This document shows positions 5,125-52,435 of a stretch of 64,000 bases of DNA, piece by piece. Source of the stretch: Desulfovibrio sp. UCD-KL4C (GTDB lineage: Bacteria > Desulfobacterota > Desulfovibrionia > Desulfovibrionales > Desulfovibrionaceae); assembly GCF_006210265.1 (NCBI RefSeq), contig NZ_VCNC01000002.1, positions 310,001-374,000 of the forward strand. Direction: 5' to 3'. Position numbers and translations under genes: made by a program. Each line of letters opens with the position of its first letter. The stretch's first letter is position 1. The notes beneath the pieces are model-generated. The model had not been told where the DNA came from, made no database searches, and worked only from the letters and a program-made list of their open reading frames with translations.

Positions 5125-5135
5125 TTTTATTCCGA

Positions 5136-34776: not shown

Positions 34777-36044
34777 TGAAAAATACAACTCAACCAGTTC
34801 TGGCTATGATCCTGAAAGGATACCCGCGTATTTCTGAAACATTCATATCAAATGAGATACGATTACTCGAAAAACGGGGCGTTAAAATTCATATTATCTC
34901 CATGCGTAAACCGCGTGAAGATTTCACACATAAATCTATTTCAGAGATTAAAGCTGAAGTATCTTACCTGCCGTCAACACTTGAGGGATGCCTTGAAGAA
35001 CTTTTCGGGTCATCAGATCATGACGCAGGTTTAAAAGACACACGTTATAAAGTAGATCCTGATTTTACGATTAGAGTTGATAAAATATGGGACAACTTTC
35101 GCAAGACAGGCAATGAAGCTTCTTTTAAACATATGCTGCAAGCTGAGTATATCGTTGAAAAAATTCTACCCGGGTCTAATATTTTCCATATCCACGCTCA
35201 CTTTGCCCATTCTCCGACTTCCGTCGCGAGAAATACAAGCAGGCTTTCAGGGATTCCGTTCAGTTTTACAGCTCATGCCAAAGACATCTATACGCAAGCT
35301 CCTGAAAAAATAACCGCTAAGATTTCCGAAGCTAAATTTGCAGTAACTTGCACTGGATACAACTGCAAATATCTTGAAGAGATAGCTCCTAAGGGTAAGC
35401 CCATACATAAAGTCTATCATGGCATTGATCTGCGGCTTTTTACTTCAGATAAAGATTATTCATCATCTGCGCCTTACGAGATTTTCACTGTAGCAAGGTT
35501 CACTCCTAAAAAAGGGCTCCCGACTGTATTTAAGGCATTAAAAGTTCTTGCGGATAAAGGAATAGATTTTTCTTATAAAATTGTCGGTGACGGCGATGAT
35601 AGAGAATCCACACTGGCAATGATTGAAGATCTTGGTCTATCTAAGCAATGCACATGGCTAGGGACAAAGCCACACGAAGAAGTGCTTGAACTATACCGTT
35701 CAGCAGACCTATTTGCACTGGGATGCGAAATAGCAGCGAACGGAGACAGGGATGGAATACCAAATGTTTTGGCAGAAAGTATGGCCATGTCTGTTCCTGT
35801 AATAGCAACCACTATATCCGGTATACCTGAGCTAATTGATAATGGCATAACAGGTATGCTTGTTGAACCTGGTGATTACGTGGCAATGGCTGAAGCCATG
35901 GAGAAGATATTAACAGATCAAGCACTCAGGCACTCTATGATTCCGGCAGCTAAACAAAAAGTTCATGATATTTTTGATAACAGATACTGGATAAATATCT
36001 TGGCTGACGTGTATGAATTATATGGGATAAAGGCCAGCGACTAG
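34776..36044 (+). CDS. GT4-family glycosyltransferase
   Basis: The 422-residue product is a GT-B glycosyltransferase of the GT4 type. The acceptor half has AHFAHSPTSVARNTSRL near residue 145. The donor half has FTVARFTPKKGLPTVF near residue 228, GDGDDRESTL, and DGIPNVLAESMAMSVPVIAT near residue 328, where the usual EX7E begins with Asp instead of Glu. I chose ATG 34776, overlapping the previous stop, rather than the TTG six bases earlier. It probably extends an exopolysaccharide or envelope glycan. Confidence 0.85.
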   Translation: MKNTTQPVLAMILKGYPRISETFISNEIRLLEKRGVKIHIISMRKPREDFTHKSISEIKAEVSYLPSTLEGCLEELFGSSDHDAGLKDTRYKVDPDFTIRVDKIWDNFRKTGNEASFKHMLQAEYIVEKILPGSNIFHIHAHFAHSPTSVARNTSRLSGIPFSFTAHAKDIYTQAPEKITAKISEAKFAVTCTGYNCKYLEEIAPKGKPIHKVYHGIDLRLFTSDKDYSSSAPYEIFTVARFTPKKGLPTVFKALKVLADKGIDFSYKIVGDGDDRESTLAMIEDLGLSKQCTWLGTKPHEEVLELYRSADLFALGCEIAANGDRDGIPNVLAESMAMSVPVIATTISGIPELIDNGITGMLVEPGDYVAMAEAMEKILTDQALRHSMIPAAKQKVHDIFDNRYWINILADVYELYGIKASD

Positions 36045-36070
36045 CTTCTGCATTATAAGGACATGACAAT

Positions 36071-37192
36071 ATGCGAATCGCCTTTTTTGCCCCGCATAAA
36101 CCTATTGATGACAAAACTCCTTCTGGAGATTTAATGATAGGTAAAAGCGTGCATGACTATCTATGCACGCATGGGCATGAAGTTCTGATTGCAAGTCGTA
36201 TGCGACTTAGAAACATAACGACATCGCCATCTAAGTGGCCAAAGCTCTACTTTGAATATAATAAAACTTTAAAAAAAGTTAAAAATTTCAACCCTGAGAT
36301 ATGGCTTACATACCATAGTTATTATAAATCTCCTGACTTATTCGGCCCGGAAATTTCTAAAAAGTTAGGTATCAAATACCTGATATATCAAGGAGTATTC
36401 TCCACAAAACATAGACGGGACTTTAGATCGTGGTTAGGTTTTATGGCAAATAAAAAAGCTTTGCTTTATGCAGATCATGTTTTTGCCAACAAAAAAATAG
36501 ATTTTGAAAACCTTTCACGCATAATTCTTCCTGAGAAATTAACTAAAACACGCCCAGGGATAAATCCTGAAAAATTTACATTCTGCCTAAATAGCAGAAC
36601 CGCAATCAGAAAAGCACTTAACATAGAAAAAAAACCGGTACTGATAAGCACAGCAATGTTTCGCAGCGGTGTAAAAGAACAAAGTTTAAAAGATTTAATC
36701 CTTGCTTTTGCAAATGTTTTAAAAATAATCCCCGAAGCCATACTTCTTATCGCTGGAGACGGCGAAGCCCGCAATAGACTGATCTCTTTGGCGAAGCAAA
36801 AAGCCGGAGATCAAGTACTTTTTTTAGGCAAAATAAACCGCGAAGACCTTTTTAAATACTACAGTACCGCTGATATATTCGTGTACCCAGGATACAATGA
36901 AGCTCTGGGGATGGTTTACCTGGAGGCTCAAAGCGTAGGATTACCAGTTGTAGCCTATTCTACACGTGGTCCAAAAGAAGCTGTGGACCATGATAAAACC
37001 GGACTCTTATCTCCAGAGGGAGATATCAACTCACTGGCGAATAATATTATTAGTCTTTTTCAAGACAAAACAAAACTGCAAAAAATTAATAAGTTAGCCC
37101 CCATACGCATTAAAGAACTTTTTGATCAGAACTTAAATCTGAGGCATATAGAAGAAAAAATCCGACACTCAATAGTTAAGAGGTCCAAATGA
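36071..37192 (+). CDS. GT4-family glycosyltransferase
   Basis: The 373-residue product is a GT4-type glycosyltransferase. It opens with MRIAFFAPHKP, has GDGEARNRL near residue 230, and shows the donor-site EX7E motif as NEALGMVYLE near residue 277. RPGINPEKF near the middle is the usual domain hinge. It lies 26 bases after the previous gene, and its last four bases overlap the phosphatase gene start (ATGA). The sugar donor and acceptor are unknown. Confidence 0.85.
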   Translation: MRIAFFAPHKPIDDKTPSGDLMIGKSVHDYLCTHGHEVLIASRMRLRNITTSPSKWPKLYFEYNKTLKKVKNFNPEIWLTYHSYYKSPDLFGPEISKKLGIKYLIYQGVFSTKHRRDFRSWLGFMANKKALLYADHVFANKKIDFENLSRIILPEKLTKTRPGINPEKFTFCLNSRTAIRKALNIEKKPVLISTAMFRSGVKEQSLKDLILAFANVLKIIPEAILLIAGDGEARNRLISLAKQKAGDQVLFLGKINREDLFKYYSTADIFVYPGYNEALGMVYLEAQSVGLPVVAYSTRGPKEAVDHDKTGLLSPEGDINSLANNIISLFQDKTKLQKINKLAPIRIKELFDQNLNLRHIEEKIRHSIVKRSK

Positions 37193-37806
37193 AACAGGTA
37201 CGAATTGCGTTAATCAGACATTCAGTTACTGTCTGGAATGAAGAAAATAGAATTCAAGGCCACATGGACTCTCCACTTACAAGGCATGGCAGAAAATTAG
37301 CAGAAAAATGGAAAAAACCGCTATCTCCTGAATCTTTTAATGCAGTAATAACAAGTGATCTGGGACGGGCAATTGAAACTGCCGAAATAATTACTCAAGG
37401 ACTTAACATACCGATTATAAAACTTTCTGGACTACGCGAACAGGACTGGGGTGACTGGTCCGGTTTAACATACAAAGAGCTTGATCAAAAATGGCCAGGT
37501 ATACTTTCAGCTGAAGAAGCTAAGGGATGGGACTTCCGCCCTATCGGTGGAGAGAGCCGTGATGAGACCTCAAAAAGAGCCATGAAAGCTCTCGAACAAG
37601 GCATTTCAAAGATAATTGATATAATTGACAATGAAGCTCCCAAAGTGCTTGCTGTTATTCATGAAGGAACACTAAAATCAATCACATATAAACTGGCAAA
37701 CCATGATTACATGCCCGGAACTCCCAAACTGATCAAACGCCGAAGATTGCACTGGATAAAATGGGACGGAACATTATCTATAGATAGGCTGAACGATATT
37801 TTATGA
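37189..37806 (+). CDS. Histidine phosphatase family protein
   Basis: This 205-residue protein belongs to the phosphoglycerate-mutase-like histidine phosphatases. The catalytic His is in LIRHSVTVWNEE near residue 9 (RHS in place of the usual RHG). The second acid is in LREQDWGDWSG and the second His in VIHEGTLKS near residue 155. In the glycan cluster it could remove phosphate from a sugar intermediate. Its start and stop each overlap neighbouring genes by 4 bases. Confidence 0.85.
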   Translation: MKQVRIALIRHSVTVWNEENRIQGHMDSPLTRHGRKLAEKWKKPLSPESFNAVITSDLGRAIETAEIITQGLNIPIIKLSGLREQDWGDWSGLTYKELDQKWPGILSAEEAKGWDFRPIGGESRDETSKRAMKALEQGISKIIDIIDNEAPKVLAVIHEGTLKSITYKLANHDYMPGTPKLIKRRRLHWIKWDGTLSIDRLNDIL

Positions 37807-38966
37807 AAATAATACATTACTGCCAACATGTCTTAGGCATGGGGCACTTCTTTCGTAGCCTTGAAATATCACGGGCTCTTGAAAATGAACAAGTAATTTT
37901 TATTTCCGGCGGGACAAAACCTGCAGAACAATTACCTGCTCATGTTGAATACTTTCAACTTCCCGGACTTTGTATGGATGAGGATTTTGGAGGATTAACT
38001 CCGACTGATGCAGGGCTAACGTTAGACGAAGTTAAAGCTGAACGATCAGAAAAAATTAAAATTATCTTTGAACAGGAACAGCCTGATATTTTTTTAATTG
38101 AGCTATTCCCGTTCGGACGAAAAGCATTCAGATTTGAGCTTTTACCAATTTTAGATTCAATTAAAGCTGGTCATTATGGTAATATAAAAGTCATCTGTTC
38201 TCTTAGAGATATTCTTGTAGAAAAAAATGACGGTGGAAAACACGAAAAGCGTTGTGTAGACACTCTGAATAAATACTTTGATCTTCTACTTATTCATTCT
38301 GACCCACAGATAGCAAAATTGGATGAAACTTTTCAGGCAATAAACGATATAGCTATCCCTTATTCATACACAGGATTTGTTGCCCGCAAACCTCATCAAA
38401 ATATACGAGGTACAATTAGAAAACAATTTAGAATCAGCAATGATGAAAAATTATTAATTGTAAGCGCTGGCGGTGGTAAAGTTGGGATCTCACTATTAAG
38501 AGAAGTATTTAATAGTTTTGCAGAACTTAATCTTCCAAAAACAAAAATGTTAATGCTGACAGGACCATTTTTGGACTCCACCAAATATGATCTTATGAAA
38601 ACAGCCTCTTTATCTTTGCCGAATATAACTGTAGAAAAATTTGCACAAGACTTCCCAGACCTGTTGACTGGAGCAGATGCCATGATCTCTATGGCAGGCT
38701 ATAATACCTGTATGGATATACTTACTACAAACATACCAAGCGCAGTTCTTCCATTTGCTCAAAACAGAGAACAACGGATGAGAGCTGAAAAATTGGCTGA
38801 ACATATTTCTCTAAAAATTATGAATGTTAACGATCTCAGCAATACAAATATGAAAAAGATAATCACCAATCTTCTTAGCTCTGAACACTCATCTTCAACC
38901 CATAGTATCAACCTAGACGGAGCACTCAATTCTGCCAAGGATATACAAATGGCTGGTACAAGATAA
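37803..38966 (+). CDS. MurG-like glycosyltransferase
   Basis: The 387-residue protein is the third MurG-like glycosyltransferase in this cluster. It starts with IIHYCQHVLGMGHFFRSLEIS, the shared GxGH motif. VSAGGGKVGISLL near residue 220 and SMAGYNTCMDILTTNIPS near residue 298 are the donor loops. It is probably cytoplasmic. The first and last bases overlap neighbouring genes, indicating one transcript. Confidence 0.78.
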   Translation: MKIIHYCQHVLGMGHFFRSLEISRALENEQVIFISGGTKPAEQLPAHVEYFQLPGLCMDEDFGGLTPTDAGLTLDEVKAERSEKIKIIFEQEQPDIFLIELFPFGRKAFRFELLPILDSIKAGHYGNIKVICSLRDILVEKNDGGKHEKRCVDTLNKYFDLLLIHSDPQIAKLDETFQAINDIAIPYSYTGFVARKPHQNIRGTIRKQFRISNDEKLLIVSAGGGKVGISLLREVFNSFAELNLPKTKMLMLTGPFLDSTKYDLMKTASLSLPNITVEKFAQDFPDLLTGADAMISMAGYNTCMDILTTNIPSAVLPFAQNREQRMRAEKLAEHISLKIMNVNDLSNTNMKKIITNLLSSEHSSSTHSINLDGALNSAKDIQMAGTR

Positions 38967-39757
38967 TGTCATACCGCCCAATATCCTCTATCTGGAAAAA
39001 CGATATTTCGGACCTAGTTGATGAGTTTGAATCATGGTGGGAAAAACTGGAGACACTGATTCCGGAAAATGGATGTGATGTTTTCTTCAGGGCGGATGAT
39101 ATCGGTTATCCTGGAAAACAGTTTTCAATGATGATTGATATTTTCAAAAAAAACAAAGTTCCATTAGCACTGGCGATTGTTCCTACATGGCTTAATCAAG
39201 ACAGAGTACAAAAAATATATGAAAAACTCGGCCCGGACTTATCTCTCTGGTGTATGCATCAACATGGCTACCGCCATACTAACCGTGAAAAAATAGGTAA
39301 AAAATTTGAATTCGGACCTTCTCGAGATTACGATAAGCTGACTGCTGAAATTACCAAAGGAAAACACAAACTTAATAAACTACTCGGTAACAATATGTGC
39401 CCGATATTCACTCCACCATGGAACCGCTGTACAAGTGAAACTATGACATGTCTGGTAGAATTAGGGTTCATCGCAATCTCACGCTGCATTAACGTCGCTC
39501 CATACCCAGTAGAAGGACTCCCTGACCTTCCTATTAATATAGATCTCCACACTATTAAAGAAAAAGACCCTAAACGGGCTATTAATAATTTAATGAATCA
39601 AATCGAACATGCAGTGCAATCAGATTATGCAGGTTTTATGTTGCATCATCAGCGGATGAATAAAACATCAATTAAATTTTTAGATTTTATTTTAGCTAGA
39701 ATTGCCGAAACACCTAGACTTCGCATCCAAGATATACGTGATATACTTCATAAATAA
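38966..39757 (+). CDS. Polysaccharide-deacetylase-like protein
   Basis: The 263-residue protein resembles NodB/polysaccharide deacetylases. FFRADDIGYP near residue 41 supplies the metal and catalytic aspartates. MHQHGYRHTNRE near residue 90 fits the HxxxH metal-binding motif, and FTPPWNRCT near residue 152 matches the family arginine segment. There is no signal peptide, so it may deacetylate a cytoplasmic glycan precursor. It is the last gene of the plus-strand glycan run; its start overlaps the preceding stop by 1 base. Confidence 0.8.
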   Translation: MSYRPISSIWKNDISDLVDEFESWWEKLETLIPENGCDVFFRADDIGYPGKQFSMMIDIFKKNKVPLALAIVPTWLNQDRVQKIYEKLGPDLSLWCMHQHGYRHTNREKIGKKFEFGPSRDYDKLTAEITKGKHKLNKLLGNNMCPIFTPPWNRCTSETMTCLVELGFIAISRCINVAPYPVEGLPDLPINIDLHTIKEKDPKRAINNLMNQIEHAVQSDYAGFMLHHQRMNKTSIKFLDFILARIAETPRLRIQDIRDILHK

Positions 39758-40070: not shown

Positions 40071-40748
40071 ATGGCAAAAAAAAGAATCCCCTTCCAGCTT
40101 CATGACGAAACAACTGATATTCAGTCTCAGGTGGTGCTACCTTTCAAGAAATCTCTGGAAATAAGCCTCAAAAGCATAAAATCCAGATTTTTGCGAAATA
40201 TGGTAACTGTTACCAGTCTTATCCTTGCAGTCTCTTTCCTCGCATACGTTCTCATAGGTAGCGATATTTCAAACGGAATCTACAATTCCGGCCAACTCCA
40301 CCTTGTTAAAATTCTTGATAAAGCAGGTTATCAGCCAGGCGGAAGTGCGAAAGAACGCTGGATTATAATTCTTTCACTTCTAGTATGTACGGTTGGGATT
40401 ATAAATGCTCAGCTTATGGCTGTCACCGAACGGTTTCGTGAAATAGGGACAATGAAATGCCTCGGAGCTCTTGATAGTTTTGTTTTAAGATTATTCATAC
40501 TTGAAGCTTCAATGCAAGGAATTGTAGGATCCATTCTCGGTGCATTTTTTGGAGCAATCATAGCAATATTGCTCACAATGCCCACTTATGGATGGAACGC
40601 TATTAAATATTTACCCACAGCAGACGTTGGGCTATCAATACTGTATTCAGTTGGAGTAGGCTTCGCGCTTAGCCTTATAGGTGTTTTATACCCTGCTTTG
40701 ATCGCTGCACACATGCGCCCCATTGAAGCGATGAGAGTTGAAGAATAA
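40071..40748 (+). CDS. Short FtsX/MacB-like ABC transporter permease
   Basis: The 225-residue membrane protein has a single N-terminal membrane segment (near residues 44-63), a short extracytoplasmic stretch of about 35 residues, then three membrane segments with the FtsX-type core (VTERFREIGTMKCLGAL near residue 124). MacB-like permeases normally have a ~200-residue periplasmic domain between these parts; here it is missing. The C-terminal ALIAAHMRPIEAMRVEE is typical for MacB/LolC-type permeases. The ATPase gene follows 52 bases later. Confidence 0.8.
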   Translation: MAKKRIPFQLHDETTDIQSQVVLPFKKSLEISLKSIKSRFLRNMVTVTSLILAVSFLAYVLIGSDISNGIYNSGQLHLVKILDKAGYQPGGSAKERWIIILSLLVCTVGIINAQLMAVTERFREIGTMKCLGALDSFVLRLFILEASMQGIVGSILGAFFGAIIAILLTMPTYGWNAIKYLPTADVGLSILYSVGVGFALSLIGVLYPALIAAHMRPIEAMRVEE

Positions 40749-40800
40749 ACCAATTTGGATTTGACTTTAGAAATCGAATAAAGACAAAGGCGAAACAATA

Positions 40801-41535
40801 ATGCCCGAATCACATACCATAGTCAGAGTTACCGGAGTTACTAAAAAATTTAAACTCGGAACCGTTGACGTGCAGGCTCTTAAAGGTATTGATCTAGAAA
40901 TATTTTCCGGAGAATACCTTTCGATTATGGGGCCATCAGGATCAGGAAAATCCACCCTTTTTAATATGATAGGAGGACTTGATAAACCTACAGAAGGAAA
41001 AGTTTTTATTGATGAAGTTGATATTGCACAACTTGATGCTTTTGAACTTGCATGGCTCCGCAACCGCAAGATAGGATATATATTCCAGACATTTAACCTT
41101 ATCCAAGTAATGACTGCTTTAGAAAACATAACCTTACCTATGATTTTCGCAGGTGTTCATAACGATGCGGCTGTCAAAAAAGGTATCGAATTACTCGATT
41201 TGGTAGGACTACATAAAAGATATAATCACAAACCGCAGGAGCTTTCCGGCGGACAACAACAGCGCGTTGCAATAGCAAGATCTCTTGCCAACGACCCTGC
41301 TATTATTCTTGCAGATGAACCTACAGGAAACCTTGACCTTTCAACGGGTGAAGAAATTATTAAATTGATGAGCGGCTTAAGCAAAGAACGCGGGGTAACC
41401 ATCATAACTGCAACTCACGATTATAAAATGCTTAATGCTTCCGACAGAGTAGTCTGGATTGAGGACGGACTGATTAAAAAAATTGAAAATAGAGACCAAC
41501 TTAATATTGAGATTGGCCGTATCAGCACGGTATAA
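40801..41535 (+). CDS. MacB/LolD-type ABC transporter ATPase
   Basis: This 244-residue ATPase probably energises the neighbouring FtsX-like permeases. Walker A is GPSGSGKST near residue 43, the Q-loop is in [10 protein letters not shown], the signature [15 protein letters not shown] is near residue 145, and Walker B is [12 protein letters not shown]. The arrangement of the [12 protein letters not shown] segment is that of the MacB/LolD/FtsE group, which works by mechanotransmission rather than by moving the substrate through the membrane. Confidence 0.9.
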
Positions 41536-41554
41536 TTTTCGGAGACCGCAATTA

Positions 41555-44500
41555 ATGCCCACTATCAGAATCAAAAAAAATCTCACACTTCGGTCAGCTA
41601 GAAAATTACTAGGTGTTCTTGCTATATTATTTACTATTTCAGTTCTGATAATCCCCGCTACTGCATACAGTGCATCTTCCCCCTTAAAGCAGACTGTTAC
41701 TGAATTATCTTCTTTGGGTGACCGCTCCTTCGGCTCTGATGGTGAAAAAAAAGCCTCAGATTATATCGCTGCAAAATTTAAAGAACTGAGTAAAGTAAAA
41801 GTTGGTAAGCAGGTTTTTATTGCTCCCACTATGGTTAATTCAACAGCAGAATTAACCATTGATAAAACCGGAAGAAAAATACAGATACGTCCTGCTAAGT
41901 TTAATGCTGTTTCACCACCCGCAACGCCCCAAAAAGGTCTTTCAGGTCCTATACTCTATGTAGGTAAAGGACGACTCGTTGATTTCACGGGGCTTCCCGT
42001 TAAGAAAGCCATAGTTATCATGGACATTGATTCTGGTAAAAACTGGCTGAATGCCGCAAGTTTAGGGGCATCTGCGCTCATTTACATAGATTCAGGACCA
42101 ACAATAAAAGGTTTTTTTGAAGAAAAGCTGGAACTGTCACCTCTTGATTTTCCGCGTTATTATATGAGCGCAACTGACGCTGAAAAGAAACTTGGCGTAA
42201 TCAAAGGTGGCCCGCAGACGGTTATCGCGGAGTCTGCTACTGTAAAATCCTCGGCTAAATGGAAACGTATTACAGCTGAAAACCTCTACTGCATAATTGA
42301 AGGAACTGATTCTAAACTTTCTGAAGAACTAGTCATTATTGAATCCTTCTACGACAGCTCATCTTACATAATGGGAAACTCCCCTGGCGCAGGCGAGGCT
42401 ATCTCAATCGCATCACTTCTAAAAATCGGTAAATATTTTGCTGCCAATCCTCCCAAACGTTCCATATTGCTTCTCGCTACAAGCGGACATGGTCAATCTC
42501 TGCGAGGCATGCGTGAATTTTTCAAAGCAATCTCCGGTAAAAGCATAAGCCTCAAAAAAATTAAAGCACAGCTTACTACCAAGAAAAACAATGCTGTGAA
42601 GGTTTTGAAAGGCCTTGATATGGATAATCCACTTGCAACTGAAGTGGCGGCAAGTAATCCAGAGCTTTTCAAATTAATGTATCATGCTTTAAAAAATCAG
42701 ATTAAAGACGAAGTTGATATTCTTAATAAAAACCTAATGCTTATGCGCATGCAACAAGGTATTAAAAAAGAAGATATCGAAAAAGTTGACCGAAAACGCA
42801 AATTACTGCGCCGTATATCATGGAAAACAGATTATTCAACTTTACCTGCTGATGAACTTGCGGCTTTGCATAATTTATTTCCAAAAGTTAAAGAGAATAT
42901 TCAAGCATTAAAAAATGATATTAAACAGCAACTTGATTCAGCCAAAAGCGCAAGAAAACTTCGTACAACAGTCAGGTCAAAAGACCCTGTGTGTTTCATA
43001 TCCCTTCACCTATCAAGCCACGGTCAAGGTGTAGGTGCGTTTGGGCGTGGGTGGTTTTATGATCTCAGACCTAGAGTAAATCTTTCCAGAACATTCTCTC
43101 AGGTTAACGAGATTTTAAATGATACGGCTCCTGCTGTTGAAAAAGAAATAGGAACACATGGATTGTTTGCGGATACACTCCGCCCTAACAGCTCAAAGCC
43201 TTGGCAAACATGGTTGCTTGATAAGCCTCAATTCGGAAGCGAAATCGCAACTATGGCAGGTATGTTAGGATTTACCTTTGCGACAGTTAATGATGATCGT
43301 GCGTACTGGAAAACGCCTTTTGATACTATCCAAAATATCAATTGGGATGGACTCGAAAAACAGGCTAAACTTGTTGAAGGTCTTATCAAAGGCATTTCAA
43401 ATTCACCTAAAGTTTTGACAACAAAACCTCCGCGCAAAGGATTTGCTCTTGTAAACGGTAAAGCCCGTTTTGTACGACAAGGTGAACTGTTTGCTGACCA
43501 GCCAGCTCCAAATACTATTTTTATGGCATTTCAAGGTAATACGAGATTTTATTCTCTTGCTGACACTGAAGGTGACTTTAAATTTACTGGAGTTGCATCA
43601 AAAAAACTGGTTCAACCCAAACTCATTATCGAAGGGTATAAATACAATCCAGACGGTAGAATTATATGGGCTATCGACAAGAAAAAGACAGGTATAAGCG
43701 CATATAGACTCAAAATGATTCGTCTGGATATGGAAACTAAAGTTATTATGTTCGGTTGCAGGCAAACAACCTTGTTCGACCTGCTGACTCCACGTACATT
43801 CAGATATATGACCAAAGTTGAAGTGCTTGACGGAGCGCGTGACGCTGCCCCAATGCATTTTTGGTATAGCCGAATTGACACCCGCTCCTCAACAATCACC
43901 AGTGTTTTTCTTGAGCCGAATGTTCCGTTAAAAATGACTCTGTCCGACTCTGTACTCAACAGAAAAATGATTCTTATCCACTCAACTCCTACAGATCCAG
44001 CCGGTAATGGGTATAACCTGAAAGAATGGCCTATTATTCCTGCAACCGACTATAGAGCTGCGGAAGATATGTGGAACCTTCTGAAACCGAGAATTGAAAA
44101 TCTTGAATCACATGGCATCATAAACCAAAGAATCAGAACACTGGAACAGAAGGGAACAGAAGCACTTTTAAAAGCCAAAACTGCTTGGAAAGAACGCCAC
44201 TATAATGATTTCATGGAAAACTCACGCACGTCTTGGGCTTTAGCATCAAGAGTTTATCTTGATGTAGATCAGACTCAGAAAGATGTTCTGGTCGGAGTTC
44301 TTTTCTACATAGCTTTGTTCATACCATTTGCATATTGTATGGAACGGGTGATCTTTTGTTTTGCCGATATACATAAAAGAATTTTAGGTTTTCTGGCAAT
44401 TCTTATGGCTGTCATTGCTGTCATATATATGGTCCATCCAGCATTTCAGCTTACGTATAGTCCGGTTGTCGTTATTTTAGCATTTTTCATTCTTGCTCTA

Positions 44501-46429
44501 TCCATAATGGTATCTTTAATTATCTTTTTCCGTTTTGAAAAAGAGATGATACTACTTCAGCAACGAGCACACAAGACCAGCACTTCCGAGATCAGTAAAT
44601 GGAAAGCTTTTACGGCCGCATTTGTAATTGGCGTCAGTAACTTACGACGTAGAAAAATCAGAACATTTCTTACATGCCTTACGCTTACAATTCTAACGTT
44701 CACTATCATGAGTTTTACAGCTGTAAAATCTCTCAGAGAGCATACTTATGTGCTTTTCAGTGATAGCAATCCTTATTCCGGTATTTTTATGAAAAATATC
44801 GGCTGGACAGACCTGCCCAGAGAAACTCTTGGAATTGTCAGAAATGACTTTGAAGCAAATGGTATTGTCGCTCCGCGGGGATGGCTTGAGCTAGAAGATA
44901 AAACAATTTCTGCATCAACCCCAGTAAGCTTTGGAAAAAAGAATGAAGAAGTTAAAGGTCTGATAGGGTTAAGTTCTATTGAACCGCAAGTCAGTGGAAT
45001 CAATAAAATTTTAGTATCCGGCAATTGGTTGGAACCTAATAAATCTAGGCAAATTATTTTGTCTAAAAAAATGGCTGACAGACTCGGAGCAAAAAGCGGT
45101 GATAAACTTAATGTATGGGGAAGTCCTTTCACATTAGTAGGTATTTTTGACAGCAAGAAATTTACTGAACACACAGATCTAGACGGCGAACCTATGACTC
45201 CGGTAATTTTCCCTTCCGCTACTGCACAGGAATTAAGCGAAGTTGAAGCTGACGCAATTGAAGCAGGCGAAGATATTGATACCTTCCAAGGACGATATTC
45301 TCACATTCCAAGAGAAGTAACTGCTATTATTCCCTACGGGACTTTGATGGCAATGGGCGGTAAATTAAAAGCTGTAGCTATTGCACCTGTCGCAGGTGTT
45401 TTCTCCACAAAAGTCATAAATAATCTTGTTGACCGCTACGGCCTGCCAATTTTCAGTTGTGATAAAACCGGGACGTATATTTGTCAGGCTTCTGACAGTA
45501 TAAACTATTCAGGGGTCTCCAACATCCTAATTCCACTAATAATTTCAGCTCTAATCGTACTGAATACTATGATTACCAGTGTATACGAACGTAAAAAAGA
45601 AATAGCTGTATATACATCGATAGGAATGGCCCCAACCCATGTATCGTTTTTATTTATTGCTGAAGCTATTGCTTTTGCAGTAATCAGCGTTGTTGCTGGT
45701 TATCTTATAGCTCAAACAGCCTCTGGTCTTTTTGCCGGAACACCTTTATGGGCAGGTATGACTGCAAATTATTCTTCCATGGCAGGGGTTGCTGCAATGG
45801 TTATGGTTATTGCTGTTACATTGATCTCGGTTATTTATCCCTCAAGAGTTGCTGCAAATATTGCTATTCCTGACGTTAATAGATCATGGAAAATACCTGA
45901 TTCAGGAACAGATTCAATTAAAACAACACTTCCTTTCCTTCTCAAACATGCAGAGCAAAAAGATGCAGGTGGATTTCTGCTTGAATATCTCGAAGCTCAT
46001 ACAGATGTGTCGCATGGACTGTTTTCAACTTCAGAAATTGAAGTTAACTTCAGCAAGCAGACACTACCGGAATCGCTAAAAGAAATATCACCAGATTTTC
46101 CTGATCATATAACGTGTTTTCAATTTGATGTTCGAATCTGGCTTGCACCATTTGATTTCGGGGTAAAACAAATGATCAAGCTAGAGTTCAGACCATCTAA
46201 AGAATATCCACAATTTCTCGAAACCGCGCTCATTATCAACAGAGAGTCAGGTGAATCAGGGGCATGGAAAAGATTAAATAAAGACTTCATTAACGCGATA
46301 AGAAAACAATTCCTTGTCTGGCGTTCTCTTGATCCTGAAAGGCAAAAAACATTTCGTGAGAAAATTCCAGAGTTGATGGCTTATGGATTTACAGGGCTCA
46401 ACTTGAAAAAAACTCTTGAAGATATTTAA
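41555..46429 (+). CDS. Giant M28-peptidase-like/FtsX permease fusion
   Basis: This 1624-residue protein starts with a signal-anchor-like segment near residues 17-40. Residues ~45-600 look like an M28/PA-type extracellular peptidase region. The metal-ligand positions appear changed: IIESFYDSSSY where M28 has an HxD motif, GNSPGAGEA for the GAxDN motif, and TSGHGQSL for the EExGL segment. A beta-rich region follows (about 650-850). Next come three membrane segments (~910-1000) and an FtsX-type permease core with further membrane segments up to ~1440. The C-terminal ~180 residues are a soluble extension. ATG 41555 is chosen (GGAG upstream); the frame is open from 41483. Confidence 0.7.
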   Translation: MPTIRIKKNLTLRSARKLLGVLAILFTISVLIIPATAYSASSPLKQTVTELSSLGDRSFGSDGEKKASDYIAAKFKELSKVKVGKQVFIAPTMVNSTAELTIDKTGRKIQIRPAKFNAVSPPATPQKGLSGPILYVGKGRLVDFTGLPVKKAIVIMDIDSGKNWLNAASLGASALIYIDSGPTIKGFFEEKLELSPLDFPRYYMSATDAEKKLGVIKGGPQTVIAESATVKSSAKWKRITAENLYCIIEGTDSKLSEELVIIESFYDSSSYIMGNSPGAGEAISIASLLKIGKYFAANPPKRSILLLATSGHGQSLRGMREFFKAISGKSISLKKIKAQLTTKKNNAVKVLKGLDMDNPLATEVAASNPELFKLMYHALKNQIKDEVDILNKNLMLMRMQQGIKKEDIEKVDRKRKLLRRISWKTDYSTLPADELAALHNLFPKVKENIQALKNDIKQQLDSAKSARKLRTTVRSKDPVCFISLHLSSHGQGVGAFGRGWFYDLRPRVNLSRTFSQVNEILNDTAPAVEKEIGTHGLFADTLRPNSSKPWQTWLLDKPQFGSEIATMAGMLGFTFATVNDDRAYWKTPFDTIQNINWDGLEKQAKLVEGLIKGISNSPKVLTTKPPRKGFALVNGKARFVRQGELFADQPAPNTIFMAFQGNTRFYSLADTEGDFKFTGVASKKLVQPKLIIEGYKYNPDGRIIWAIDKKKTGISAYRLKMIRLDMETKVIMFGCRQTTLFDLLTPRTFRYMTKVEVLDGARDAAPMHFWYSRIDTRSSTITSVFLEPNVPLKMTLSDSVLNRKMILIHSTPTDPAGNGYNLKEWPIIPATDYRAAEDMWNLLKPRIENLESHGIINQRIRTLEQKGTEALLKAKTAWKERHYNDFMENSRTSWALASRVYLDVDQTQKDVLVGVLFYIALFIPFAYCMERVIFCFADIHKRILGFLAILMAVIAVIYMVHPAFQLTYSPVVVILAFFILALSIMVSLIIFFRFEKEMILLQQRAHKTSTSEISKWKAFTAAFVIGVSNLRRRKIRTFLTCLTLTILTFTIMSFTAVKSLREHTYVLFSDSNPYSGIFMKNIGWTDLPRETLGIVRNDFEANGIVAPRGWLELEDKTISASTPVSFGKKNEEVKGLIGLSSIEPQVSGINKILVSGNWLEPNKSRQIILSKKMADRLGAKSGDKLNVWGSPFTLVGIFDSKKFTEHTDLDGEPMTPVIFPSATAQELSEVEADAIEAGEDIDTFQGRYSHIPREVTAIIPYGTLMAMGGKLKAVAIAPVAGVFSTKVINNLVDRYGLPIFSCDKTGTYICQASDSINYSGVSNILIPLIISALIVLNTMITSVYERKKEIAVYTSIGMAPTHVSFLFIAEAIAFAVISVVAGYLIAQTASGLFAGTPLWAGMTANYSSMAGVAAMVMVIAVTLISVIYPSRVAANIAIPDVNRSWKIPDSGTDSIKTTLPFLLKHAEQKDAGGFLLEYLEAHTDVSHGLFSTSEIEVNFSKQTLPESLKEISPDFPDHITCFQFDVRIWLAPFDFGVKQMIKLEFRPSKEYPQFLETALIINRESGESGAWKRLNKDFINAIRKQFLVWRSLDPERQKTFREKIPELMAYGFTGLNLKKTLEDI

Positions 46430-46449
46430 ATTATTTAGGGAATTATCTT

Positions 46450-48423
46450 ATGCATGGAAACATACGGAAGCGAGCTATAGCACTTGGGATCATATTCGGA
46501 TTATTAATTTGTGCCTTTACCCCCTTTAATAATGCTTATTTAAATGCAACTCCACTGGCTGGAGGACATTTTCCACTGGCTCCGTTCTTTATACTGGCAT
46601 GGCTCACAGCAATCTCGGCATTACACCACAAAATATTCCGATCAGCTCCGCTTTTAACAGGATTGGACTTGATGACCATGTGGATCCTGACAGTTATTGT
46701 TTCCGGCATAGCTTTTACAGGTCTAGCTAGAACTTTTTTCATCAACCTTACAGCACCTATCCATTTTGCAACTATCGGCAACAGGTGGAAAGAACTGCTA
46801 CAGCCGATACTCCCCCCTTCACTGCACCCGACAGATCCGAAAGTAGTAGAGAGCCTATATAACGGCATTAAAGGCGGTTCTTTCATGGATACAACAGACC
46901 TTATCAGGACTATTCCCTGGTCTGCATGGATTACTCCGCTTTTATGGTGGGCAGCTTTTATACTGCTCTGCTATTTCATGATGCTCTGCCTGACTAATAT
47001 TTTCAGCAGGCAATGGGTAGAAAACGAGCGCATTAACTTCCCTCTTCTTCAGCTACCTAAATTTATGGAAGAAGCTCTTGATCAAGGACTATATGGTTCA
47101 TTTTTAACCAATAAATTTTTCCTAATAGGATTGTTTTTCTGCATTGCGTTGCACACAATGAACGGACTCCATTTTTATATTCCGGCAGTGCCTGAAATAC
47201 CTACACTAATACTTGCAGGTAAATATTTCGCCAAAACAGGCTTGTTTTCAGGCTTTACCAAAATGAAAATTTATTTCTACCCAGCTTTTGTAGGGTTTGC
47301 TTTCCTTGCATCACGCCAGATCTCTTTCAGCTTTTGGTTTTTCTTTCTGATTGGAAGTCTTTTCTATGGGATCCTGAATATCGCAGGATTGAATATCCCA
47401 ACATCATCACTTGGCGTAACTTTTGGTCCCACTTTGACCCGTCCAGAAGAAACCCAAATGATCGGAGCGTATCTGGTTTTCTTTTTATTTATCATATGGC
47501 TTGCCAGACAACATCTTATACAAGTTCTACGTGAAGCATTCGGTAGCAAACAAACTAAAGGTGACTCCGAATGGATGTCCCTGCGTTTTTCATTCTGGGG
47601 ACTTATGATTTCGGGCTTTCTATTGGTCACATGGTGTGTTTATTTCGGTATACCGATGTTTACGGCACTATTAGTCCTTGCAGCCTTCTTTATCTTCACC
47701 GTGGTAGCTTCAAAAGCTATATGCCAAGGTGGGATTGCGTATTTTACACTGACTGCCGCCCCTATTGACGGCATCACCGCTATATTTGGAACTAAGTTTT
47801 TCGGAGCGGTAGGAATTGCAGTTACTGCCATGTGCCAAAAAATTCTTTTTGTCGACCTTAGAGAATCGTTAATGCCATCACTCGTTCATGGGGCAAAAAT
47901 TAATGAATGGATTAAGAATAAGAGACTTTTCCTTTCAGGAATAATAGTGATTCTGCTCGCCGGAGTTGCTGTATCTTTCGCAGCTATGCTCTTTATATGC
48001 TATAAATATGGAATTCGTGAACTTCAGCTTGATTGGGCAACAAGCACATCAATAACTGTTTATGACAATATTGTAAGGGTTATTCAAGAGCCTGCGGCTG
48101 CTTCCGAATGGATAACAACCTTCGCAACAATCGGTGCAATTGTAATGTTTATATTGGTTCTTGCCTACAACAGGCTCCCATGGTGGCCTCTTCACCCAAT
48201 CGGATATCTTACAGCGTACAGTTCAGCCATGAAAATTCTCTGGTTCAGTTTTTTTCTAGGATGGATGTTTAATCAACTCACCTTGCGCTACGGTGGAGTC
48301 GGACTATTTAAAAAAGTCCGCTACTTATTTTTCGGATTAATAATGGGTGATTTTTTAATGGGCGGAGCATGGGCATTATATGGACTATGGGCGGGACAAA
48401 GCTATCAGGTACTTCCGGGTTAA
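46450..48423 (+). CDS. Polytopic membrane protein (DUF6785/DUF6784-like)
   Basis: This 657-residue protein has about 12-14 hydrophobic segments and no signal peptide. The opening AFTPFNNAYLNATPLAGGHFP and the final block PWWPLHPIGYL and GVGLFKKVRYLFFG remind me of families annotated as DUF6785 and DUF6784, which are rare, OPT-like membrane proteins. I am recalling this, not testing it. A conserved-looking VENERINFPLLQLP follows the fifth or sixth segment. The start lies 20 bases after the previous stop with AGGGA upstream. Transport of a small peptide is possible. Confidence 0.6.
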   Translation: MHGNIRKRAIALGIIFGLLICAFTPFNNAYLNATPLAGGHFPLAPFFILAWLTAISALHHKIFRSAPLLTGLDLMTMWILTVIVSGIAFTGLARTFFINLTAPIHFATIGNRWKELLQPILPPSLHPTDPKVVESLYNGIKGGSFMDTTDLIRTIPWSAWITPLLWWAAFILLCYFMMLCLTNIFSRQWVENERINFPLLQLPKFMEEALDQGLYGSFLTNKFFLIGLFFCIALHTMNGLHFYIPAVPEIPTLILAGKYFAKTGLFSGFTKMKIYFYPAFVGFAFLASRQISFSFWFFFLIGSLFYGILNIAGLNIPTSSLGVTFGPTLTRPEETQMIGAYLVFFLFIIWLARQHLIQVLREAFGSKQTKGDSEWMSLRFSFWGLMISGFLLVTWCVYFGIPMFTALLVLAAFFIFTVVASKAICQGGIAYFTLTAAPIDGITAIFGTKFFGAVGIAVTAMCQKILFVDLRESLMPSLVHGAKINEWIKNKRLFLSGIIVILLAGVAVSFAAMLFICYKYGIRELQLDWATSTSITVYDNIVRVIQEPAAASEWITTFATIGAIVMFILVLAYNRLPWWPLHPIGYLTAYSSAMKILWFSFFLGWMFNQLTLRYGGVGLFKKVRYLFFGLIMGDFLMGGAWALYGLWAGQSYQVLPG

Positions 48424-48468
48424 AACTATTGCCTAATTTTATGCCAATAAAAGTAGCGGAATTAAAAA

Positions 48469-50430
48469 ATGAATAACGACAAAGAATTACAAGAATATCG
48501 AGATCTACTCAAAGCCCCTGACCATTTTGAAGAAGGTTTTGATTGGAAAACGGTTGTCGGCGCGGTTTTCATCGGCTTTCTGATGATGCCGGGCAGTATG
48601 TATTTACAACTTGTCATCGGTCAGGGAATCGGTCCCGCTGCCAGATGGGTTACAATTATTCTTTTTGCCGAAATCGCTAAACGCTCATACACAGAACTCA
48701 AGCAGCAGGAAATTTTTCTGCTCTACTATATGGCGGGTGCGGCATTAGCCTCGCCTTTCTCTGGATTGCTATGGCAACAGTACCTTGTACAATCAGATGC
48801 AGCCCGAATGTTAGGGCTGACAGAGTTTATTCCTACATGGGTTGCTCCGCAGCCCGGTTCTGAATCATTACTGCAAAGAACTTTTTTCCATCGCGACTGG
48901 CTGATCCCGATTTTGTTATTAGTCGGTTCGCAAATAATACAACGAATCGATCATTTCGGACTTGGTTACGCCTTGTACCGTATAACATCAGATGTTGAGA
49001 AACTGCCTTTCCCTATGGCTCCTGTCGGAGCTTTAGGAACAATGGCTCTTGCAGAATCAACAGAAGAAAAAGAAGCCAGTTGGAAATGGCGCGTATTCTC
49101 AATAGGAGGAGTCATAGGACTGACTTTCGGATCAATCTATGTACTCTTGCCAGCAGTATCCGGACTTATTTTTACCGAACCGATAAGATTAATTCCGATT
49201 CCATGGATTGAGCTTACGCCATACACAGAAAAAATTCTTCCAGCAGTTGCAACCGGTATTCAATTTGATCTTGGGTTGTTTTTCATAGGAATGGTTTTAC
49301 CATTCTGGGCTGTAATCGGCGGATTAATCGGGATTGTAATTACCTTTGCCGCAAACCCTATTCTTTTTGAGCATGGAATTCTACATAGATGGCATCCGGG
49401 TATGGAAACGGTTGAAACTGTTTTTGCCAATAACTTTGATTTTTATATGAGCTTTTCCATAGGTCTTGGACTTGCCATCGGATTAATAGGAATATGGTCG
49501 GTAGTGCAATCCTTCAGAGGTGAACACGCCAAAAGCCGTTCTTCGTGGAGCAATCTCTTTAAACCTCCAGAAGGTAGAGGCGACATTAATTTCTGGTTCT
49601 CAATTGCAATTTATCTTTTTTCAACACTTGCTTATGTCGGCATGTGTTTATTTCTAGTTCCTAATTTTCCGTGGATATTCTTCCTGCTGTACGGGTTTAT
49701 TTATACACCGATAATTTCGTATATTTCAGCTAGAATGGAAGGAATAGCCGGACAGTTTGTCAGTCTACCACTGGTTAGAGAGGCAAGCTTCATTGCTGGT
49801 GCAAAGTTTTTCGGATATCAAGGAATTGAAATATGGTATGCTCCTATACCTATCCACAATTACGGAGAAGCAACTGTTCATTTTCGTGAGATTGAACTTA
49901 CAGGAACATCAATCCGTGGAATAATCAAAGCAGAACTGGTTGTATTCCCTGTAGTTATGATTGCCAGCTTATTATTTTCCCAGTTTATATGGCAGTTAGC
50001 TCCTATTCCTTCATCCAACTACCCTTACGCTCAAGAATTATGGCATCTGCAAGCTTTAAACAGTCTGCTAATGCAGACCTCAACATTAGACGGGAACTCA
50101 TTGTTTTTCCAAGCCTTAAGCGGAACAGTTATATTCTCAGGAATTGGACTTGGTTTGATTCTTTATGGTATTTTAAATATCCTTGGACTTCCAATCATGC
50201 TTATTTACGGTGTTGTTCGAGGCCTTGGACAAAGCACTCCGCACGCATTCATTCTGGAAGTAATCGGAGCACTTATTGGCCGGTACTTCTTCCAAAAAAA
50301 GTATGGGACCATGTGGAAACAATATGCACCTGTATTACTGGCTGGTTTTTCATGCGGCATGGGATTAACAGGAATGTTTGCAATGGGATGCACCTTAATT
50401 TTAAAATCTCTTGGTAAAATGGCCTATTGA
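48469..50430 (+). CDS. Polytopic OPT-like membrane protein
   Basis: This 653-residue protein has about 13-15 hydrophobic segments, with a soluble N-terminus of about 28 residues. It resembles, in my recollection, proteins labelled 'peptide transporter' that accompany DUF6785 proteins, distantly related to oligopeptide transporters. Conserved-looking patches include KLPFPMAPVGALGTMALAES near residue 182 and AGAKFFGYQGIEIWYAPIPI near residue 445. It lies 45 bases after the gene above and matches it in size, so the two may form a heterodimer. Substrate unknown. Confidence 0.6.
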   Translation: MNNDKELQEYRDLLKAPDHFEEGFDWKTVVGAVFIGFLMMPGSMYLQLVIGQGIGPAARWVTIILFAEIAKRSYTELKQQEIFLLYYMAGAALASPFSGLLWQQYLVQSDAARMLGLTEFIPTWVAPQPGSESLLQRTFFHRDWLIPILLLVGSQIIQRIDHFGLGYALYRITSDVEKLPFPMAPVGALGTMALAESTEEKEASWKWRVFSIGGVIGLTFGSIYVLLPAVSGLIFTEPIRLIPIPWIELTPYTEKILPAVATGIQFDLGLFFIGMVLPFWAVIGGLIGIVITFAANPILFEHGILHRWHPGMETVETVFANNFDFYMSFSIGLGLAIGLIGIWSVVQSFRGEHAKSRSSWSNLFKPPEGRGDINFWFSIAIYLFSTLAYVGMCLFLVPNFPWIFFLLYGFIYTPIISYISARMEGIAGQFVSLPLVREASFIAGAKFFGYQGIEIWYAPIPIHNYGEATVHFREIELTGTSIRGIIKAELVVFPVVMIASLLFSQFIWQLAPIPSSNYPYAQELWHLQALNSLLMQTSTLDGNSLFFQALSGTVIFSGIGLGLILYGILNILGLPIMLIYGVVRGLGQSTPHAFILEVIGALIGRYFFQKKYGTMWKQYAPVLLAGFSCGMGLTGMFAMGCTLILKSLGKMAY

Positions 50431-50558
50431 CGAAAAGTTAAAGCTATGATGTTTTGTCATCCCAACGTTACAAGACTCGAATACTTAAAATAATTTTTAA
50501 TAAGTTAAATAGTATAAATTGACTTCACACGCCTTTCTATCCTCAAAAGGAAAATTTA

Positions 50559-51455
50559 ATGGTTAAGAAAAATATTGCATGGGACGGTATAAGCTTTGAA
50601 ATATCGTCTAAATTTGAAGTTAGCGGTATAGATAAAAAGTTTATACAGCTCGATAACGGTGAACATCCCTGCATTGAAATCAGATGGTATAATTCAGGTA
50701 AATCATATAAAGAACAAAATTATTTTAGACAATTAGCAAAAAAAATTGAAAGTTCTTCCGGAATCAAAATTGAATCATCAGTTTTACCTTCTTCTTGGAA
50801 AAAACCACTAGATAGATTCAATTCAACTGCTTTCTATTGGCAATCAGACCTTTCCACAGGACGCGGTGTGATGTTCTACTGCCAGAAATCAGCTAAAGTT
50901 ATGCTGATTCAATTCATAGGCAAGGCTGGCGAAGAATTGGAAGATGCTGCTATTTCAATATTTAACAGTGTCAGATTTTATAATACTGAAGAATTTACTC
51001 CTTGGCGCATCTACGACATGGAAGCAACTCTTCCGGCATCTTACAAGCTTGATTCGTTTGAATTCAAACCCGGGCGATTTAAAATAAGCCTATGTGATGA
51101 CACTGAGTGCATTTCTCTTTACAGAGTCAGCCCAGCAGACACTATTTTAAAAGAACGATCTCTTGGAAGTTTTTCAAAAGAGTTTTTCAAAAAAGAAATA
51201 GCAAAACTAAACCTTTGCATTGCAGAACTTGAATTTGGCGAAGGCGCAACCTGCATGTTCGGCCAAGAAAAAAAACCATCTACTGCAAAAATAACCTTGT
51301 CCAAATTAAGCTCTAAACAGCGCCCGTTCGGACGAATTGAAGCAAGGTATACAAAAGACGCTAATCGCATTCAAGCGGTACTAATAAACTCTCGCACAAG
51401 TATCCCTGAAAGCAGAATGCAAAACATTTTCGAGAATTACTCAATTGTTCGGTAG
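50559..51455 (+). CDS. Unknown soluble protein with possible internal duplication
   Basis: I do not recognise a family. The 298-residue product has no signal peptide or membrane segment. Two halves look alike: 'WDGISFEISSKFEVSGI' near residue 8 and 'WRIYDMEATLPASYKLD' near residue 151, each followed by beta-strand-like segments and an 'IR/SL' turn. This suggests duplication of an ~145-residue domain. AAGGA precedes the ATG. Its last bases overlap the start of the PqqD-like gene, so both are likely to act together. Confidence 0.55.
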   Translation: MVKKNIAWDGISFEISSKFEVSGIDKKFIQLDNGEHPCIEIRWYNSGKSYKEQNYFRQLAKKIESSSGIKIESSVLPSSWKKPLDRFNSTAFYWQSDLSTGRGVMFYCQKSAKVMLIQFIGKAGEELEDAAISIFNSVRFYNTEEFTPWRIYDMEATLPASYKLDSFEFKPGRFKISLCDDTECISLYRVSPADTILKERSLGSFSKEFFKKEIAKLNLCIAELEFGEGATCMFGQEKKPSTAKITLSKLSSKQRPFGRIEARYTKDANRIQAVLINSRTSIPESRMQNIFENYSIVR

Positions 51456-51837
51456 AAAAAAGAAAAAACTTATTCCAGAGATGACCAGAGGGGAAGCTCT
51501 TGCTTGCAAGCCTGTCAAAAATCTCGATATTGAAGAGACTAGGACAGACCATAATAAAGTAATTCTAGCCTACCCCTTACGGTTAAAACCTATTTTTTCA
51601 GGTATCGCAAAAAAATACGGATTATGGAAAGAAGGCCGCCCCCCAATGAAAAGGCTTGAGCTGGATGATATGGGTACGATGGTATGGGATATGATTGACG
51701 GTAAAAACAGCGTAAAAAAAATATCCGCTGCTTTTGCTGAAAAATATACTGTCCTCCCGCGCGAAGCAGAAGTAGCAACAGCTTCTTTCTTGAAAGACTT
51801 AGGTAAGCGTGGGCTTATCGCATTCGATACCAAATAA
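51445..51837 (+). CDS. PqqD-like protein
   Basis: This 130-residue protein has a PqqD-type domain at residues ~70-128 (LELDDMGTMVWDMIDGK, then a REAEVATASFLKDLGKRGLI helix). PqqD and related RiPP recognition elements bind leader peptides for modifying enzymes. The first ~20 residues are basic. I use the TTG at 51445, which overlaps the previous gene by 11 bases and keeps the FGRKKKK start; an ATG at 51481 is the alternative. No radical SAM enzyme or precursor-like gene is next to it. Confidence 0.7.
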   Translation: MFGRKKKKLIPEMTRGEALACKPVKNLDIEETRTDHNKVILAYPLRLKPIFSGIAKKYGLWKEGRPPMKRLELDDMGTMVWDMIDGKNSVKKISAAFAEKYTVLPREAEVATASFLKDLGKRGLIAFDTK

Positions 51838-51912
51838 CATATTTAAGACAAACCCCAGAACAAACTAAAAAACTCGATTTATCAAGTTATCATAAATTTA
51901 AAAAATACAGAT

Positions 51913-52341: not shown

Positions 52342-52435
52342 TTAGTCCTCCTGATACCCACATTATAATTATTATCTAAATACCTTTATTCAACGTGAAT
52401 ATCAAGACTTTTTCTAGATTTTTTCAAATAAATTA

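Follow-up and report, generated by a model that had tools for sequence, protein, structure and literature searches.

The DNA analysed here (the window) is a stretch of 64,000 nucleotides from Desulfovibrio sp. UCD-KL4C (contig NZ_VCNC01000002.1, positions 310,001 to 374,000 of the forward strand), in which seven genes between window positions 40071 and 51837, referred to below as G1 to G7, form a cluster of transport-like proteins. Our analyses have identified three of these genes (viz. G3, G4 and G5) as one inherited module; the products of G1, G2 and G3 look like an ATP-binding cassette (ABC) complex, and G4 probably belongs to the OPT/YSL superfamily of transporters. The genes, their conservation in related genomes and the role that they may have at the cell envelope are discussed below.

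All seven genes lie on the plus strand. The first is G1 (40071..40748), a small FtsX-type permease without a large periplasmic domain (FtsX 61.1 bits, residues 98-216 of 225), and it is followed by G2 (40801..41535), a LolD/MacB-type ABC ATPase (ABC_tran 121.9 bits), and by G3 (41555..46429), a large permease subunit with matches to the Pfam families M28 (34.4 bits), MacB_PCD (33.3 bits) and FtsX (47.3 bits), in which a degenerate M28-like stretch is combined with hydrophobic segments. G4 (46450..48423) is a DUF6785/DUF6784 membrane protein with a predicted OPT/YSL fold (DUF6785 550.5 bits) and G5 (48469..50430) is a polytopic protein of 653 residues, the most conserved member of the set and possibly a divergent OPT relative. 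The cluster ends with two genes that look like accessories, G6 (50559..51455), which has no Pfam family at E<=0.1, and G7 (51445..51837), which encodes a PqqD-domain protein (39.7 bits, cut-off 23.4). A first-pass annotation, made from the sequence alone, had placed seven plus-strand genes at these positions and named their domains; all of the open reading frames (ORFs) are confirmed, and the domains agree with the Pfam profiles (FtsX; ABC ATPase; M28 with MacB_PCD and FtsX; DUF6785/DUF6784; none for G5 and G6; PqqD). The raw ORF of G3 starts at a TTG (41483) and overlaps G2; the ATG at 41555, with GGAG in front of it, is the more likely start. When this ATG is used, the intergenic gaps from G1 to G7 are 52, 19, 20, 45, 128 and -11 bases, which fits the gaps of 20-130 bases and the overlap of the last two genes described in that annotation. 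No Rfam family was found at gathering score across 33000-52600, and promoter-like matches (59 vs. 52.5 expected) and terminator-like matches (14 vs. 15.4 expected) were at chance level.

The products of G1, G2 and G3 look, from their profile matches, like a type VII ABC complex of the MacB/LolCDE kind: the ABC_tran domain of G2, the FtsX domains of G1 and G3 and the MacB_PCD domain all score over their cut-offs. The NCBIfam equivalog cut-offs for LolCDE and MacB are missed; the top match of G2, to LolD, reaches 228.4 of the 307.75 bits required, and MacB and LolCE are far below. G3 exceeds the Pfam cut-off for M28 (34.4 vs. 21.3 bits) over profile positions 1-89 of 193 only. Among 75 G3 sequences, the position of the first ligand His of M28 (HxD-type) is Phe in 64, the Glu-Glu region is replaced, and the DD-type Asp is retained in 70, being Gly in the window member. 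Since the ligand His and the Glu-Glu pair have been lost, the M28-like stretch is probably a binding rather than a cutting domain. The earlier description of G3 as a "giant degenerate-peptidase fusion" holds for its degenerate M28 part, and the protein as a whole is better named the large permease subunit of an ABC complex. YbbAP-TesA is a recent case of a type VII ABC complex partnered with a periplasmic hydrolase (PMC12646458).

Conserved gene order and co-inheritance

Relatives of G5 were identified by scanning a genome collection with one genome per species (84,980 species), which yielded 189 confirmed relatives; the best 80 of these 189, which share 80-95% identity, were used here, and their titles name Deltaproteobacteria or Desulfobacterota lineages, except for two that say only Pseudomonadota or Proteobacteria. 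These 80 loci and 22 further stretches make up a gene-order set of 102 records, in which some organisms are counted twice (L and G with three digits denote individual loci, records or genomes, as distinct from genes G1 to G7). Gene order was counted by tblastn with adjacency defined as a gap of -200 to 900 bases, so that pairs split across contigs are invisible to the count. Among the records that hold both members of a pair, G1 and G2 are adjacent in 69 of 69, G2 and G3 in 73 of 74 (the exception, L061, being an unrelated ATPase), G3 and G4 in 84 of 86 (exceptions G218, with 2.8 kb between them, and G163, with 12.4 kb), and G4 and G5 in 97 of 98 (exception L091, 923 bases). G6 and G7 are adjacent in 44 of the 45 records that hold G5, G6 and G7, and G6 lies within 1.2 kb behind G5 in 29 of these 45; in other records an ABC exporter, a cyclic-nucleotide-binding protein and a 206-residue protein without a Pfam family occupy the interval between G5 and G6. 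Either G6 or G7 is present in 35 of the 59 records with at least 9 kb of sequence after G5. Two observations weigh against a fixed unit: locus L048 has G5 alone, with about 10 kb on each side, and the parts are non-adjacent in three genomes (G130, G311 and G352). The linkage of the seven genes is nevertheless not due to chance. The proposal that the genes form one unit, which was to be given up if they proved unlinked in relatives, stands after the comparison of the 102 records. A tblastn search of plasmid records revealed no relative of G4 or G5.

A different arrangement is seen at locus L063 (positions 1-7845), where genes for TamB, an Omp85/POTRA protein and an arginase-family protein precede G4 and G5 in place of G1-G3. 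The gene layout of L101 is like that of L063, and the contig concerned in genome G352 is apparently identical to L063; this genome has its G3 on a separate contig.

The species distribution of the module was determined in a phylum sample of 297 genomes drawn evenly, with G5 scored by its presence, G4 by a match over its cut-off and G3 by a match at E<=1e-60. Each of the three genes was found in 20 of the 297 genomes, and the 20 genomes are identical; one further, weak DUF6785 match (genome G058, E 5.8e-4) is below the cut-off. In G130, G311 and G352 the parts are located on different contigs, away from the contig ends, yet all of G3, G4 and G5 are kept, and the parts are split between contigs in G192 and G270 as well, where assembly breaks may be the cause. 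The pairwise protein distances in the 20 genomes are strongly correlated among the three proteins (r of 0.967 for G3-G4, 0.946 for G3-G5 and 0.935 for G4-G5), whereas their correlations with DsrA are 0.515, 0.498 and 0.626. On the basis of their occurrence in the same 20 genomes and of the co-variation in excess of that with DsrA, G3, G4 and G5 are one inherited module. The distances of G2 correlate with those of G3, G4 and G5 at r of 0.77-0.83 (66 records).

The gene dsrA scores over its cut-off in all 20 module genomes vs. 143 of the 297 overall (Fisher p 2e-7, shared ancestry being ignored); 123 of the 143 dsrA-bearing genomes are without the module. A closer sample of 58 genomes showed G5 in 24, viz. 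in 17 of 17 genomes of the same genus, 4 of 17 from the rest of the family and 3 of 24 from other families of the order. One genus is patchy for this gene (present in G037 and G046, absent from G042, G050 and G054), and gain or loss has been frequent. The protein itself is more conserved than DsrA (median pairwise distance in the 20 genomes 0.257 vs. 0.344). In comparisons of the window with 12 loci, the fourfold sites of G5 show an identity of 0.18-0.29 outside the closest locus, much like those of G3 and G4, and the G5 protein remains 80-83% identical. Because the protein has been kept while its fourfold sites have diverged, this conservation reflects selection on the protein and not recent transfer.

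The predicted fold of G4 and the placement of G5

The AlphaFold2 model of G4, built from 71 sequences (effective depth 45 for 74 copies), has a mean predicted local distance difference test score (pLDDT) of 82.4 and a predicted template modelling score (pTM) of 0.86. When this model was compared with the PDB by Foldseek, the two best matches were both to barley Yellow stripe 1 (HvYS1, YS1), with E values of 1.8e-7 (7wsr) and 3.9e-7, the next match being at 0.06; the template modelling (TM) scores against 7wsr are 0.63/0.68. Alignment with VIA-align gave a Z score of 21.4 over 549 residues and of 21.0 over 548 residues for the YS1 entries and of 4.8 for the next row. The matched YS1 structures are the apo form and the form with Fe(III)-deoxymugineic acid (Fe(III)-DMA). 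A second structural look revealed no other family above background, a result which by the tool's own note leaves other families possible. Profile comparisons weigh against this placement: none of 30 G4 members matched the OPT family (PF03169) at E<=10, and hhalign of G4 against OPT gave a P value of 0.21. In view of its predicted structure, G4, and the families DUF6785 and DUF6784 with it, probably belongs to the OPT/YSL superfamily. YS1 itself works as a proton-coupled dimer of elevator-like type, and a DALI search at the time of its publication gave no significant structural homologue for its domains (PMC9691689).

The placement of G5 is a different matter, as this protein has no Pfam family at E<=0.1. 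Sub-threshold matches to OPT PF03169 (cut-off 25.8 bits) are found in the G5 proteins of four genomes, all in one profile region (489-621), with E values of 7.9e-4, 0.004, 0.008 and 0.18, the best of them scoring 18.7 bits (G130); in addition, 1 of 30 aligned G5 members matches OPT at E 0.0035. Comparison of G5 by hhalign with five OPT proteins from three genomes gave a P value of 0.0014 over 254 colinear columns, vs. 0.22 for a column-reversed OPT control and 0.27 for the TRAP transporter family. Both G4 (NERINFPLL) and G5 (EKLPFPMA) contain a pattern resembling the OPT "LPFPEG" region.

Several results speak against a relationship of G5 to OPT. In 15 of the 19 genomes searched G5 has no OPT match, and there is none for the G5 of the window; of the 10 weak OPT places in those genomes, 6 are outside G5, including one as strong as those in G5 (G094, E 0.005). 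The hhalign comparison in global mode gave a P value of 0.62, and G5 against its own reversed profile reached 0.0006 (16 columns) and, in global mode, 1.6e-5; because of this self-reversed control, the P values for G5 are not to be taken at face value. Profile comparison of G4 with G5 detected no similarity, and the AlphaFold2 model of G5 (30 aligned sequences) has a pLDDT of only 37.6. The low score of this model is due to the copies being too alike, since the 78 G5 copies are at least 75% identical in all pairs and have an effective depth of 1.2 at 80% identity. On these sequence comparisons, G5 is a probable but unproven OPT relative. An "oligopeptide transporter OPT superfamily" gene of another sulfate reducer (Dde_0728), possibly the counterpart of G5, is listed as raised by 7.8 when copper was left out and lowered by 5.2 on one of the copper surfaces (PMC10533852).

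Accessory and flanking genes

G6 and G7 look like accessories rather than core components of the cluster, because G6 was found by a search with a 38-row alignment in 10 of the 297 phylum genomes, all of them among the 20 with G5, vs. 20 for each of G3, G4 and G5. In the closer sample, 25 of the 58 genomes have a G6-like match; two of them (G018 and G020, E ~1e-11) have it without G5, and G024 has G5 without G6. When its members were searched against Pfam, G6 gave only scattered weak matches, and its profile matched no PDB entry at E<=1. A single CxxC is present in 33 of 38 members and none in the window member, so that we do not claim a zinc site for G6.

The PqqD match of G7 is the only one found in the genome and falls short of the PqqD equivalog cut-off (21 of 46 bits). 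By motif scan, one of the 47 records with G7 (G083) has a radical-SAM-like gene within 5 kb, the gene lying beside G7; the four other motif matches are G6 itself or, by eye, a different cysteine-rich protein. The 13 genes of the cluster, including the six upstream genes described below, contain no radical-SAM family, and the cluster gaps contain no small ORF with a ribosome-binding site by the criteria of the scan. Hence, with a radical-SAM-like gene near G7 in 1 of 47 records, no small ORF and the equivalog cut-off missed, PqqD-based peptide maturation is unsupported. Of the suggestion that the cluster handles a peptide or modified peptide at the envelope, the former part is favoured by the predicted OPT/YSL fold of G4, which points to small solutes, peptide-like ones included, and the modification by way of the PqqD-like protein is not supported.

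Six tightly packed plus-strand genes (33610-39757) are present directly upstream of G1, from which they are separated by 313 bases (39758-40070). They encode two GT28-like glycosyltransferases (A, 33610..34776, Glyco_tran_28_C 48.3 bits; E, 37803..38966, 43.9 bits), two GT4 glycosyltransferases (B, 34770..36044, Glycos_transf_1 E 4.9e-36; C, 36071..37192, E 1.8e-35), a protein of the histidine phosphatase superfamily (D, 37189..37806, His_Phos_1 E 4.2e-42) and a DUF2334 protein (F, 38966..39757, 44 bits), which by its family is presumably deacetylase-like. Their presence was counted in 19 records with at least 9 kb before G2, of which four are from the same genus and two (L061 and G130) are anchored on unrelated ATPases. 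Gene E is the block member most often kept, being found within 9 kb upstream of G2 in 14 of the 19 records, followed by B and C (8 each), A and F (7 each) and D (6); the records with gene A are G093, G094, G290 and the four same-genus genomes. Of the 65 records that offer 1.8 kb or more of upstream sequence, 27 have gene F; a few of the 65 are likewise anchored on unrelated ATPases. All six genes occur in order in G093, A, B, C and E in G094 and G290, and B to F in G145; in G162 the glycosyltransferase block sits behind an insertion of several kilobases. The gene cluster therefore extends upstream into A-F, in some distant genomes too, and its border at 40071 in the first-pass annotation was too narrow, the upstream genes accompanying the set in several relatives. 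Against a regular association, the block is absent or farther off in many module genomes (gene A is present in 7 and gene D in 6 of the 19 records, four of which are same-genus).

Other genes were observed around the module or elsewhere in the window. A minus-strand gene for a 389-residue protein without a Pfam match (32191-33360) clusters with the glycosyltransferases and is kept beside the module in the four same-genus genomes. At several loci (L097 and, downstream of G7, L074, L077 and L081) an ABC exporter, a cyclic-nucleotide-binding protein and a STAS, HATPase and SpoIIE partner-switch set adjoin the module; the exporter of L097 (14129-19546), of about 850 residues, seemingly has a long insert in its nucleotide-binding domain, as the ABC_tran match falls in two stretches. 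A family of about 206 residues (e.g., L077:11618-12241), which lacks a Pfam match and, as judged by eye, has a signal peptide, occurs in 38 of a set consisting of the 80 loci plus the window, mostly directly before G6 where it is found; the window is without it. The window also contains a selenocysteine tRNA gene (12961-13054) and, judged from its translation only, a gene for a protein with several CxxCH motifs that is probably a multihaem cytochrome (62626-63372).

A candidate envelope transport module and its relation to known systems

The reading that we tentatively prefer, and regard as quite possible while short of probable, is that the cluster is an envelope transport module of some sulfate reducers, in which a type VII ABC complex serves a pair of OPT-fold carriers whose solute is small and may be linked to a glycan or resemble a chelate; we infer its substrate, its direction and the physical coupling of the ABC complex to the carriers. 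According to this proposal, the G1-G2-G3 complex would work by mechanotransmission, ATP hydrolysis by G2 setting the large periplasmic portion of G3 in motion; the dead M28-like domain of G3 would bind a ligand and not cut it. G4 and G5 would form an elevator carrier pair of OPT/YSL fold (the fold of G5 being putative) that moves the small solute over the inner membrane, probably with protons. The ABC part may hand the ligand to these carriers, or strip it off them, on the periplasmic side. The upstream glycosyltransferases, the phosphatase and the DUF2334 protein would probably build or trim a glycan part of the ligand or of an anchor, and G6 and G7 may act as adaptors, probably cytosolic as no signal peptide is seen by eye. 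The predicted OPT/YSL fold of G4 raises the likelihood that a small solute, which could be peptide-like, is transported; the upstream sugar genes, though not obligate, indicate a glycan-bearing ligand or anchor; and the restriction of the module to dsrA-bearing genomes in the sample, together with the YS1 fold of G4, makes a metal chelate worth considering. The transport or envelope role that had been suggested for the set is upheld. The literature, searched by title and abstract with most subscription papers and all bioRxiv preprints outside the coverage, gave no description of a system with all seven components, as had been supposed, and within the same coverage no publication was found on DUF6785 or on FtsX with M28 and OPT.

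A second explanation, which we consider doubtful but deserving of attention, is that the cluster is an envelope biogenesis machine for a lipid-linked glycan or glycolipid, which the upstream glycosyltransferases would make and the module would export or extract. The ABC part would pull this product out of the membrane, much as LolCDE or YbbAP does, and the OPT-fold pair would either flip it or contribute ion energy. The four glycosyltransferases and the DUF2334 gene directly upstream, and the TamB/Omp85 pair ahead of G4 and G5 in L063 and L101, are consistent with such a role, as are the type VII ABC relatives that handle lipoproteins or extract hydrophobic molecules (PMC12646458). The glycosyltransferase block is, however, not obligate, and no undecaprenyl sugar transferase, flippase or polymerase family was found in the 13 cluster genes. 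Moreover, OPT/YSL proteins of known substrate carry water-soluble peptides or metal chelates.

The transport-module proposal also has a bolder form, which we think unlikely in its entirety: the cluster would represent a hybrid transporter class in which a type VII ABC complex, one of its domains being a degenerate hydrolase, is physically coupled to a heteromeric OPT-fold elevator pair, so that periplasmic, ATP-driven mechanotransmission loads or unloads an ion-driven carrier. Its ligand in sulfidogens may bear a chelate or glycan and keep metals available despite sulfide. Decidedly unlikely, in our estimation, is a system for metal-chelate or peptide uptake, in which a chelator or peptide that the cell has secreted is taken up again by the carriers, in the way that YS1 takes up Fe(III)-phytosiderophore, and the MacB-like part releases or recycles it, to the benefit of sulfidogens whose sulfide precipitates metals. 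The fold match of G4 to YS1, which stands well clear of all other rows, and the extreme conservation of G5, which suggests an invariant ligand, agree with uptake of this kind, and so does the occurrence of the module in dsrA-bearing genomes alone; this last link may only mirror shared ancestry, and many dsrA-bearing genomes are without the module. Among the 13 cluster genes there is no family of outer-membrane receptors, periplasmic binding proteins or known chelator synthetases. It is very improbable that the ABC complex and the two carriers have no joint role and are neighbours by inheritance only: the domain families of the ABC part are individually common and the parts are unlinked in three genomes, but G3, G4 and G5 occur in the same 20 genomes even where unlinked, and their co-variation is well above the DsrA background. 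Least credible of all is modified-peptide handling by a ribosomal-peptide pathway in which G7 would act as recognition element, for although G7 carries a PqqD domain over the Pfam cut-off, adjoins G6 almost invariably and in G083 has a radical-SAM-like neighbour, that neighbour is exceptional, the equivalog cut-off is missed, no small ORF with a ribosome-binding site accompanies it and G6 is present in 10 of the 20 module genomes.

These results provide a predicted structural assignment (the OPT/YSL fold) for DUF6785/DUF6784 and, through occurrence and co-variation, connect these families with a type VII ABC complex. They also draw attention to G5, a membrane protein of sulfate reducers more conserved than DsrA and without an assigned function. 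The confinement of the module to dsrA-bearing genomes in the sample may show the handling of a solute that other organisms do not need.

In comparison with known systems, the cluster shares with the type VII ABC systems (viz. MacAB-TolC, LolCDE, FtsEX and YbbAP-TesA) a LolD/MacB-like ATPase and permeases with FtsX and MacB_PCD domains. It differs from them in that G1 is a mini-FtsX, in that G3 has about 1000 residues before MacB_PCD, including the degenerate M28-like stretch, and in that no MacA, TolC, LolA or TesA-like family was found among the 13 cluster genes. With the systems that use PqqD-type recognition domains it has the domain of G7 in common, and neither a maturase nor a precursor was detected among its genes. 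G4 is a full-length member of DUF6785/DUF6784 (PF20581, PF20580), for which Pfam records no function and for which the OPT/YSL fold is proposed here. Its predicted fold is like that of the OPT/YSL transporters (HvYS1; PDB 7wsr, 7wst) over 549 residues, with an identity to HvYS1 in the structural alignments of only 9-10%, and the C-terminal half of G5 is weakly, below threshold, similar to PF03169. In contrast to the OPT/YSL transporters, two different carriers here adjoin one another and are tied to an ABC complex, and if the ABC and OPT parts do act as one machine, this would be a transporter arrangement for which we know of no parallel.

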